Assembly: GCA_905182565.1 (NCBI GenBank)
Contig: CAJJCB010000017.1
Location: forward strand, 62,001 to 126,000
Length of the DNA stretch: 64,000 bases
Direction: 5' to 3'
Source: Acidimicrobiaceae bacterium
GTDB taxonomy: Bacteria; Actinomycetota; Acidimicrobiia; Acidimicrobiales; Poriferisodalaceae
The notes beneath the pieces are model-generated. The model was not told the origin of the DNA, ran no database searches, and saw only the letters and a program-made list of their open reading frames with translations. Position numbers and translations under genes: made by a program. This document shows positions 11,564 to 19,120 of the stretch, piece by piece. Each line of letters opens with the position of its first letter. The first letter of the stretch is position 1.

Positions 11564-12850
11564 CTAACCTTTGGCTCTGCCGGCATACCCAAACAGTTTG
11601 CCAGCAACTTTTCGAATCTGGATCTCTTCCGCACCCTCTGTAATTCTGTAGCGTCGGTGATGGCGGTATATGTGCTCAAATGGCATATGTCTGCTGTAAC
11701 CATTACCACCGCAACTTTGCATCGCCCGATCGGCGGCATCGCAACAGAATCGATTACCTCTGTAGTTACACATTGCGACTCGGTCGGTTATTTCCATATA
11801 GTCAACACCTTCGTCCATCTGCCAAGCTGTTTTCCAAATAAGGGCCCTGATCATCTCAGCTTCCGTGTACAACTCAGCTAATGGAAACTGAATAGCTTGG
11901 TTTTGTGACAATGGCTTGCCAAAAGTCGTTCGGTTATTCACGTAATCGACAGCGGTGTCGATGCAATGTAAGCCGGCGCCGACCGAAGAAGCTGCTTGAC
12001 GAATTCGATTTTCATGTACAAACAACTGAGCGGTTTGAAGCCCACGCCCCTCATCGCCAAGAATGTCATCGTTCGATACTCGAACTTCAGTTAGTCGCAC
12101 GTGTGCATGATCAGTCGGCATGTTGAACGTCCACATGAACTCTTCGACTTTGAATCCAGGCGTATCTACCGGCACGATGAAACAAGTTATGCCATGTCCT
12201 TCACCGGGGTTACCAGAAGTCCGAGCAAAAATATAATCATGCGTTGCGTGGTGCAATCCCGTGTTCCAATATTTTTCTCCGCTGATAACCCACTCGTCAC
12301 CATCACGTGTGGCGGTAGTTTCCATCCAAGTAGCATCGGAACCATGCAGCGGTTCGGTTAGCCCGAAGCCTATTCTCGCAGATCCCTCCAACAATTTCGG
12401 AATCCACTGAGTCTGTTGAGCTTCGGTGCCGAACTTTTCCATCATTAAGACAGTTGGAAAATTCCCAATTATTGAGCTTTCGTTCTGCAAGTCATTGTGC
12501 AGACCCAAGCCTTTTCGTGCCAAGTGTTCACGAACAATTGCCATTCCTAAATTTGTGCCGTCCTTACCACCGAATCGTTTCGGTAAGTGCCACCGCAAAA
12601 ACCCTGCAGCGTCGGCTTCTCTTTTCATCCTTACAAGCAGGGTTTCCCACTCCTCGTTTGGAAGACCATCTCGTTCCCAGTCGGTTCTAGCATCCTCGCG
12701 ACGATGATCGAAGAACCGGATATTGTCATCTTCGTTCTCTATCGGTCTTATAACATCTTCTATAAAGAGATCTAGATCATCGAGTAGAGACTTGATGTCG
12801 TTGGGAATCGTAAAGTCCATGACAAATGAAGGTATACCGTCAGAGAACAT
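11564..12850 (-). CDS. acyl-CoA dehydrogenase
   Basis: A 428-residue FAD-dependent acyl-CoA dehydrogenase that introduces an alpha-beta double bond. Seen: GFGLTEPLHGSDATW (FAD/acyl-binding loop), ISGEKYWNTG, the RQAASSVGAG and NRTTFGKPLSQNQA region, and Glu405 in RITEGAEEIQ, the position of the usual catalytic base. An N-terminal extension rich in acidic residues resembles the ACAD10/11-like branch. The ATG at 12850 has AGGGAG five bases ahead; an internal ATG at 12820 is a weaker option. It is divergent from, and its 5' end may overlap, the selenoprotein candidate. Confidence 0.92.
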   Translation of the reverse strand: MFSDGIPSFVMDFTIPNDIKSLLDDLDLFIEDVIRPIENEDDNIRFFDHRREDARTDWERDGLPNEEWETLLVRMKREADAAGFLRWHLPKRFGGKDGTNLGMAIVREHLARKGLGLHNDLQNESSIIGNFPTVLMMEKFGTEAQQTQWIPKLLEGSARIGFGLTEPLHGSDATWMETTATRDGDEWVISGEKYWNTGLHHATHDYIFARTSGNPGEGHGITCFIVPVDTPGFKVEEFMWTFNMPTDHAHVRLTEVRVSNDDILGDEGRGLQTAQLFVHENRIRQAASSVGAGLHCIDTAVDYVNNRTTFGKPLSQNQAIQFPLAELYTEAEMIRALIWKTAWQMDEGVDYMEITDRVAMCNYRGNRFCCDAADRAMQSCGGNGYSRHMPFEHIYRHHRRYRITEGAEEIQIRKVAGKLFGYAGRAKG

Positions 12851-12851
12851 C

Positions 12852-13451
12852 TTGCTCCCTATTGTTGTTTGGTCAGACTTTATTTGACCTTGGTGTTACT
12901 TGGCGTGGGCCCGTGCGGCCCGTCTAGAAGAGCAGCATGACGTTGCTATTAGCTGGATGCCATATGAGCTTCATCCGGAGATTCCAGATGGTGGCCAGAT
13001 CAACAACAGAAGATTCACAGCGATTGCCAAATTAGCTGCCGAGATGGAATTACCGTTCCTGGCACCCAAAAAATTTCGACCAACTAGGCGAGCACACCAA
13101 GCAGTATTACTGATGGATTATATCAAGCCGGCGAATACGCCGTTACTGATGAACAGGATGTTCGAGGCGATCTGGGTTGAAGAATTAGATATCGAATCAC
13201 CCGAAATTTTATTTGAGCTAATGTCTGATTCTGAAATCCCCGCTGACGTAGTCCAGAGGGTAGTTCTAAGCGATGAACTTAAGCCGGCAATCGGCGTCTC
13301 TGTTAGGAAGGCTTTGGAGTGGGGGATAACCGGTACACCGAGCTGGGTGATAGACAACAAATTGATGGTGCCGGGTTTACAGGAAGACGATTTTTTCGAT
13401 CGCGTTATCGCTAAGCTCGCTGCGAATAGAGCCGAAACACTAGAGCGTTAA
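12852..13451 (+). CDS. DsbA/FrnE-like oxidoreductase, predicted selenoprotein (TGA as Sec at 12885)
   Basis: From GAAGAGC onward the protein is a normal FrnE/DsbA-family thioredoxin-fold enzyme: SWMPYELHPEIP, RRAHQAVLLMDY, and the cis-Pro motif GITGTPSWVIDNK. The fragment opening at 12900 lacks the active site. Reading in frame through TGA at 12885-12887 restores VVWSDFI-U-PWCYLAWAR, where homologues have DFxCPWCYLG, so TGA replaces exactly the first active-site cysteine (U12, C15). The length becomes about 199 residues, near the family norm. A GC-rich hairpin with a GU-bearing loop follows (see next feature). Start is uncertain: TTG at 12852 gives a natural N-terminus, ATG at 12819 is the nearest ATG; neither has a strong ribosome site and both abut or overlap the divergent acyl-CoA dehydrogenase gene. 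The alternative is a nonsense mutation or sequencing error. Confidence 0.72.
12885..12921 (+). promoter_or_regulatory. candidate bacterial SECIS element (UGA plus hairpin)
   Basis: After the TGA and a 19-base spacer, GGGCC (12907-12911) and GGCCC (12917-12921) form a perfect stem around the loop CGTGC; two wobble pairs (T-G, G-T) extend it below. The loop GU is at 12913-12914, 26-27 bases after the UGA. Bacterial SECIS elements are small hairpins within the coding region just after UGA with GU in the apical loop, and this fits. The stem is short, and it was judged by eye only. Confidence 0.55.
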
Positions 13452-13493: not shown

Positions 13494-14744
13494 ATGCAGC
13501 CGACTTATTCAGACTCAGCTCAGGCATATCGTGAGCGTATCCAGTCCTTTATTGCCGAGCACCTACCGGCTAAGTGGGATGGTATTGGTTCGTTAACTGG
13601 CGACGCGAAAGCTAATTTTTTGAAAGATTGGCGCCAAGTTCTACGAGACAACCAGCTACTTGCAACCGTCTGGCCCACAGAGTACGGCGGCCCAGGTCTA
13701 TCTGCGTCTGAGAATGTCATCATTGCGGAAGAGTTCACTAAAGCAGGATTACCAACTGGTGGCTCTAACGACGGATTTGGCATCGGGATGGTTGGTAACA
13801 CGATCATTGAGTGGGGAACTGAAGATCAGAAAAAACACTATCTTCCAAGAATTCTAGAAGGAGATGATCTTTGGTGTCAGGGCTACAGCGAACCCGATGC
13901 CGGTTCTGACCTAGCGAATTTAGGTTGCAAAGCAGAGCTTGATGGAGACGAATGGATTCTCAACGGCCAAAAAATATGGACGTCTAACGGGCATCTAGCT
14001 AATTGGATTTTCGTCCTTGCTCGCACAACTCCAGAAAATGGTAAACACCAAGGCATCACGTTCTTTTTGTGCCCGATGGATCAGTCCGGGGTTGATGTCC
14101 GGCCGATCGTGAACATTGCTGGCCACAGTCATTTCAATGAAGTTTTCTTTTCAGATGCTCGTGTTTCAAAAAATAACGTGATCGGCGAAGTGAATGGCGG
14201 CTGGGCTGTTGCTATGACTTTGCTGGGTTATGAACGCGGCTTCGGGGCTACAACAACCTATTTTCGATATCGCGCTGAGCTAGATCGTTTAGTTGAAATG
14301 GCGCAAGCTCGTAAACGCACAAATGAGCCAGACATTCGGCAACGATTAGCTTGGTGTCATAGCAAGGTTGAGATAATGAGATGGCTAGGGCAACAAGTCT
14401 TAACGTCTTTCTTGAATGGAGAGCCACCAGGTCCTAAAAGTTCTATAGGCAAATTGAATTGGAGCGAATATCATCGCGAAGCAACTGAACTTGCCTTAGA
14501 TATTCTAGGTTCTGACGCCATGATTGTGGAGGGCGATGATCGACTAGCCGCCGGTCTTGGAGCCGCTGATGCTGGTACTCCGAACACATCTTCGGCATGG
14601 ATCAACAGCTTCCTTTCTGCTCGATCGGGAACGATTTATGCCGGAACAAGTCAAGTGCAAAAAAATATTATTGGTGAACGAATACTAGGTTTGCCAAAGG
14701 AACCTCGGTCAGACGAGGGCCCATGGAACGAAACCCCAAGGTAA
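13494..14744 (+). CDS. acyl-CoA dehydrogenase
   Basis: A 416-residue FadE-type enzyme. Seen: VWPTEYGGPGLS, WCQGYSEPDAGSDLA, LNGQKIWTSNGHLA, GHSHFNEVFFSDARV and the C-terminal TIYAGTSQVQKNIIGERILGLPKEP. The residue aligned with the medium-chain catalytic glutamate (before GTS) is Ala, as in subfamilies that carry the base on another helix, so chain length cannot be told. It overlaps the uridine kinase gene by 22 bp. Confidence 0.92.
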   Translation: MQPTYSDSAQAYRERIQSFIAEHLPAKWDGIGSLTGDAKANFLKDWRQVLRDNQLLATVWPTEYGGPGLSASENVIIAEEFTKAGLPTGGSNDGFGIGMVGNTIIEWGTEDQKKHYLPRILEGDDLWCQGYSEPDAGSDLANLGCKAELDGDEWILNGQKIWTSNGHLANWIFVLARTTPENGKHQGITFFLCPMDQSGVDVRPIVNIAGHSHFNEVFFSDARVSKNNVIGEVNGGWAVAMTLLGYERGFGATTTYFRYRAELDRLVEMAQARKRTNEPDIRQRLAWCHSKVEIMRWLGQQVLTSFLNGEPPGPKSSIGKLNWSEYHREATELALDILGSDAMIVEGDDRLAAGLGAADAGTPNTSSAWINSFLSARSGTIYAGTSQVQKNIIGERILGLPKEPRSDEGPWNETPR

Positions 14745-18172: not shown

Positions 18173-19120
18173 GTGAGTTACAAACCCGATACAGCAGCCT
18201 TTATAGCTCAGTTGGAAGCAGCCAGCGCAGGGGCACCCAAGACACATGATTTAGAACCCTTCGAAGCGAGAAACGGTTACCGAGCTCTCGCTCACATGCT
18301 TGGGCCGGGGCCAGAGGTAGAAGGTGGTGTGTCTGAGTTCGTTATAGAAGAGCGAGATCTGGAGATTCCAGTTCGCGTTTATAAACCCAGCAAAAGCGAG
18401 AATCTACCAGTTCTGGTTTTTTTCCATGGCGGTGGGTGGGTCATAGGTGACCTAGAAACCCATGATAAAGAGTGTCGCCTTTTGTGTAACAACGGAGAGT
18501 GCATCGTGGTAGCAGTTGATTATCGACTTGCGCCGGAGCATATGTTTCCTGCGGCAGTTGATGATTGCTGGGCTGCTCTTTCTTGGGTGAAATCGAATGC
18601 AACATTATTTGGCGGCGATCCGGAAAGAATAGCCGTAGGCGGCGATTCAGCAGGTGGCAACCTTGCAGCTGTAATCGCCCTCCTGGCTCGAGATAATGAA
18701 CTTGATCTCCGCCTCCAGCTCCTCGTTTATCCAGCATCTGATGCCAGAGTCTGGCACCAATCTTATGATGAAAATGGTGCGGGGTTTTTCTTACCAATGG
18801 AAACAATGCGTTGGTTCTATAACCATTATTTACGAGAAAACATTGGTGGTGACCTAGCTGGCGATTGGCGTGTTTCCCCAGCAGCTGCGGCCAGCCATTC
18901 AGGTCTGGCACCTGCATACATAGTGACGTGTGAACGAGATCCGTTGCGCGACGAAGGCAACGAGTACGCAGAGCGTTTGAAGTCGGCGGGAGTTACTGTG
19001 ACACATCGACAGTTTGACGGTCAGCCGCATGTTCTCTTTCAACTGGCGAACCAAACTGAAGATGGTGCAAATCTACTAATCGAATGTGGTCAGGTTCTGC
19101 GTAAAGCCTTTGAGCTATGA
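18173..19120 (+). CDS. HSL-type alpha/beta hydrolase (carboxylesterase)
   Basis: A 315-residue hormone-sensitive-lipase family esterase. Seen: oxyanion motif FFHGGGWVIGD, DYRLAPEHMFPAA, nucleophile Ser159 in GDSAGGN, an Asp in CERDPLRDEG and His in GQPHVLF. It should hydrolyse short acyl esters in the cytoplasm. The start is GTG at 18173 and the stop overlaps the ATG of the next gene (ATGA), so it is translationally coupled to a penicillin-acylase-like protein; both may act on one ester/amide substrate. Confidence 0.9.
   Translation: MSYKPDTAAFIAQLEAASAGAPKTHDLEPFEARNGYRALAHMLGPGPEVEGGVSEFVIEERDLEIPVRVYKPSKSENLPVLVFFHGGGWVIGDLETHDKECRLLCNNGECIVVAVDYRLAPEHMFPAAVDDCWAALSWVKSNATLFGGDPERIAVGGDSAGGNLAAVIALLARDNELDLRLQLLVYPASDARVWHQSYDENGAGFFLPMETMRWFYNHYLRENIGGDLAGDWRVSPAAAASHSGLAPAYIVTCERDPLRDEGNEYAERLKSAGVTVTHRQFDGQPHVLFQLANQTEDGANLLIECGQVLRKAFEL

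Follow-up and report, generated by a model that had tools for sequence, protein, structure and literature searches.

The window, by which we mean the whole 64,000-nucleotide stretch that was analysed, contains on its forward strand a reading frame (12819-13451) that is crossed by an in-frame TGA at 12885. Taken as selenocysteine (U), this codon gives a protein of 210 residues, in which read-through of TGA 12885-12887 produces ...VVWSDFI-U-PWCYLAWAR... and continues up to the TAA at 13449-13451. The product carries one PF01323 (Pfam DSBA) domain (E=3.4e-26; 92.6 bits against a gathering score of 25.6), nearly whole, which agrees with the claim of the earlier note that the TGA sits at the first Cys position of a CPWC motif and that reading through it restores a full-length protein. 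Both the UxxC redox motif and the cis-Pro of the DsbA-like (PF01323) family are present: the TGA specifies the first active-site residue of UPWC, the TGT at 12894-12896 (+) the resolving Cys, and the codon at 13338-13340 (+) the cis-Pro of the TGTP motif, which faces the active site. In the numbering of the 199-residue form, the invariant residues are D9, U/C12, P13, W14, C15, R21, and P163 (alignment A3), the last two codons named corresponding to C15 and P163. Ordinary annotation takes the first in-frame start past the TGA and yields a 183-residue ORF without the active site; routine annotation would thus shorten this gene, or overlook it. Among the other read-through TGA frames across the window, judged by eye, we found no further convincing selenoprotein.

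An acyl-CoA dehydrogenase gene (11564-12820, reverse strand) lies divergent to the TGA-containing gene, and a second one (13494-14744, forward strand) follows it, both assigned from their Pfam domains. The divergent dehydrogenase is found in every family locus examined, and the marine clade retains the downstream one, as do the Cys-containing relatives L063 and L064. Also nearby are two MaoC/FAS1-dehydratase-like hydratases, a uridine kinase, a glyoxalase-superfamily gene, and a DUF169 gene. Between the divergent genes is a symmetric promoter-like box, AAGGTATACCGT (12829-12840), which places a −10-like element of the form TANNNT on both strands (TACCGT on the forward and TACCTT on the reverse); the marine-clade copies have it upstream in the conserved form CGAACGTATACCGTC. 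Each element is located 8 nt from a start codon, the ATG of the acyl-CoA dehydrogenase on one side and, on the other, the codon aligned with the ATG or GTG of homologues, and the box may serve as a shared bidirectional, probably leaderless promoter. The ATG at 12819, from which the earlier note started the gene, is a doubtful start: it is upstream of the box and overlaps the start of the divergent gene, and the start codon of homologues aligns with 12849. In the window's genus this position reads ATC, followed by TTG. Because of the distance between the box and the homologues' start codon, translation would more plausibly begin near 12849-12854, at AUC 12849 or UUG 12852, giving a gene of 12849-13451.

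To follow the TGA codon across relatives, we surveyed homologues in 397 genomes of the order Acidimicrobiales and scanned the genome contigs. The sister species (86% protein identity) has the same TGA, as do all members found of the window's family, a marine lineage of the Acidimicrobiales (Actinomycetota), at 42-60% identity; 27 of these sequences differ from one another after the TGA. In more distant Acidimicrobiales the aligned codon is TGA or TGC, and in phyla farther away it is TGC or TGT, with AGC (Ser) in a few remote matches. When the protein is aligned with its Cys homologues, Cys sits at the TGA column. Relatives do not have TGAs scattered at other positions; the TGA is at exactly this codon and nowhere else, and no further in-frame stop occurs among the family copies analysed. 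Since the same aligned codon is TGA in every family member found, its presence is not due to chance. Downstream of the TGA, dN/dS against the sister species is about 0.076/0.384, and this sequence is under purifying selection. One could still take the TGA for a genuine nonsense mutation or a base-call error, given that ordinary annotation reports a shortened ORF and that the relatives, and probably also the window, stem from metagenome-assembled genomes. Such an origin is scarcely credible when many genomes assembled independently share this TGA, no second in-frame stop accompanies it, and dN/dS is low after it; the conservation of the TGA across the family already refutes a pseudogene or base error.

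The earlier note had suggested looking for selA, selB, selC, and selD in the same genome, and all four were found in the host genome (2.65 Mb, 95.6% complete). SelA (2.6e-97) is directly followed by SelB (1.4e-80), a tRNA-Sec with a TCA anticodon (65.5 bits) was detected by both Rfam and ARAGORN on the same contig, and SelD has its own TGA within GUACK and is thus a Sec-containing SelD. A mycothione-reductase-like gene lies about 1.4 kb from selD (G000:C12:21547-25248; L014, L095), with 606 bits against a cut-off of 636. Of the 35 genomes that encode the protein, 25 have the TGA form and 10 the Cys form; selA is present in 24 of the former and 2 of the latter (Fisher p=1.6e-5, with related genomes treated as independent, and with the form in 5 of the 35 taken from the in-frame stop count instead of from codon reading). 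No selA was found in the fragmented assembly of one genome with the TGA form, G198. A genome-wide reassignment of UGA, or its misreading as Cys or Trp without selenium, would likewise restore the protein by read-through. Nevertheless, TGA terminates an ordinary gene in the window (18173-19120), several family copies of the Sec-containing DsbA-like (Sec-DsbA) gene themselves end in TGA, and the genome has a dedicated tRNA-Sec together with SelA, SelB, and SelD. We consider this explanation highly improbable, and recoding of UGA to another amino acid was rejected on the use of TGA as a stop and on the Sec machinery.

Selenoproteins of bacteria are recognized by a SECIS hairpin just downstream of the UGA with a G early in its small loop, and such a hairpin was found here (12905-12923, forward strand). 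Its core stem pairs 12907-12911 with 12917-12921 around the loop CGTGC (12912-12916), and the outer pairs are partly formed. In the fold GGGCC-CGUGC-GGCCC, the G is second in the loop, and the element begins 20 nt after the UGA, with 19 bases between, so that the position and sequence are those given in the earlier note. In 22 sequences of the family, pairing within the seven-pair helix reaches 92.9%, versus 30-51% in slid registers, and in six sequences one G-C pair is swapped for A-U on both sides. Since most columns are nearly invariant, covariation was not above that of column shuffles (57/500 and 164/500). Synonymous diversity along the gene is the stronger test and gave a clear signal: its all-family profile has its lowest point downstream of the TGA at the hairpin. 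In the marine clade, codons +6 to +12 have the lowest value (0.38, rank 1 of 181 downstream of the TGA), and in the second, separate Sec clade within the order codons +4 to +10 do (0.09, rank 1 of 185), whereas the Cys clades show about 0.9-1.0 at the position of the hairpin; genus g2 is too uniform for a synonymous constraint to be distinguished. Folding energy is weakly better than in synonymous shuffles (mean z −0.70, and −0.27 for the Cys forms), the relative L025 is without the consensus stem, and Rfam SECIS_1 gave no match over the host genome, nor in the controls. A constraint that is present in Sec clades and absent in Cys clades is what would be expected of a bacterial SECIS, and this pattern favors the interpretation of the hairpin put forward in the earlier note.

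On a maximum-likelihood tree, which has several long branches and an arbitrary root, five changes of the Sec label are required, and well-supported branches make at least three of these unavoidable. The homologue L040 (1489-2118) has the Cys form, yet its hairpin still has the sequence seen in its Sec relatives and its genome still encodes selA; it is likely a recent Sec/Cys switch. Separately, a second, distant Sec-DsbA is encoded at L007:8937-9563 on the reverse strand (G000:C26:408936-409562), with UPWC, TGA, and a similar hairpin with the loop CGUGC. It has matches in 25 of the 39 family genomes, 24 of these with TGA. It lies ahead of egtB and egtD in the window's genus and, among the loci seen, in no other, and we draw no functional link to ergothioneine from this.

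With regard to the protein itself, an AlphaFold2 model built from 41 homologues (pLDDT 95.7, pTM 0.90) gives a DsbA/FrnE fold with high confidence, and Deinococcus FrnE is its nearest match. The top Foldseek matches are the D. radiodurans FrnE structures 5CO3, 5CNW, and 5XWH (TM 0.81-0.85; the closest with E=5e-12 and TM 0.81), followed by S. coelicolor SCO1869, a kappa GST, and an HCCA isomerase, with Rv2466c weaker; the sequence search also points to FrnE as the closest PDB entry. The translation of about 200 residues has no C-terminal Cys, and as the C-terminal tail of FrnE is absent we call the protein FrnE-like and not FrnE proper. Taken together, these observations make it very probable that the gene of this uncultured marine actinobacterium encodes a functional selenoprotein, cytoplasmic and of the DsbA-like/FrnE group, with UGA read as Sec in UPWC. 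The sel genes, the alignment with Cys homologues, the single TGA position, and the Sec-only constraint on the hairpin all support the functional UxxC redox enzyme proposed in the earlier note. Sec insertion itself and the activity of the enzyme are inferred, and so are its reductase direction, its electron donor, and a role beside acyl-CoA catabolism. A cytoplasmic location would fit a translation in which no signal peptide is visible. SelB would recognize the hairpin about 20 nt past the UGA and deliver Sec-tRNA-Sec, and translation would go on to give a thioredoxin-fold enzyme of roughly 200 residues with a UPWC active site. The selenolate would then attack a disulfide, sulfenylated, or thiolated target, the neighboring Cys would resolve the selenenyl-sulfide, and a low-molecular-weight thiol or a reductase would regenerate the enzyme. 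In NCgl2478 the first Cys is nucleophilic and the second is resolving (PMC8280269), and by analogy the attack is probably made by Sec. The genome has mycothione-reductase-like and MshC-like genes, both below curated cut-offs, which suggest that the host may use mycothiol.

It is also conceivable that Sec is inserted but that the protein acts in an acyl-CoA pathway as an isomerase, a transferase (HCCA isomerase or kappa-GST-like), or a partner protein, and not as a general disulfide reductase. The fold is common to HCCA isomerases and kappa GSTs, and the pairing with acyl-CoA dehydrogenases and MaoC-type hydratases is conserved; however, the intact UPWC and cis-Pro favor thiol-disulfide chemistry, and the closest matches are the FrnE disulfide oxidoreductases. 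We regard such a role as unlikely. A redox function could itself be tied to the neighborhood: the Sec-DsbA of this marine actinobacterial family might be the selenium-dependent redox partner of an acyl-CoA degradation module, co-expressed with the acyl-CoA dehydrogenase from one symmetric bidirectional promoter. We put this forward tentatively, as a possible but rather doubtful role. If true, the supply of selenium would directly affect the use of lipid or steroid-type carbon.

Finally, we compared the gene with known systems. DsbA-like selenoproteins with UxxC (COG2761) were described in 2005 from nine Sargasso Sea sequences (PMC1088965), and a 2026 review lists a "DsbA-like protein form 1" with PF01323 and UxxC (PMC13188914). 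The window's gene falls within these published definitions and belongs to a kind known since 2005: the domain, the UxxC, the SECIS-like hairpin after the UGA, and the marine source are all as here. The comparison was made by description, and those are metagenome sequences, whereas for the present gene the lineage of the host, the Sec machinery, the neighboring genes, the conservation, and the switching between Sec and Cys can be seen. Among the papers of the searched library that mention both selenoproteins and Acidimicrobi- taxa, none, judged by title and abstract, deals with this subject. What is new is the lineage, the family-wide conservation, the Sec/Cys switching, and the conserved pairing with a divergent acyl-CoA dehydrogenase across a symmetric promoter-like box. 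This provides a genome-resolved host and a gene context for a class whose known members come largely from marine metagenomes, and a selenocysteine-using lineage of marine actinobacteria in which one enzyme has changed between its Sec and Cys forms. The best PDB match in both structure and sequence, D. radiodurans FrnE (5CO3, 5CNW, 5XWH), has in common with our protein the W-S-D-x-x-[CU]-P-W-C and cis-Pro regions, but it has Cys in place of Sec, about 20% identity, and a chain of 260 residues versus about 200. FrnE has a C-terminal extension with further Cys, as the title of its C239S entry and its length of 260 indicate. The actinobacterial cytoplasmic DsbA-type mycothiol-dependent reductases NCgl2478 and Rv2466c belong to the same fold class, and Rv2466c was found by Foldseek; nevertheless, Rv2466c is a much weaker structural match (TM 0.59), and both are Cys enzymes.
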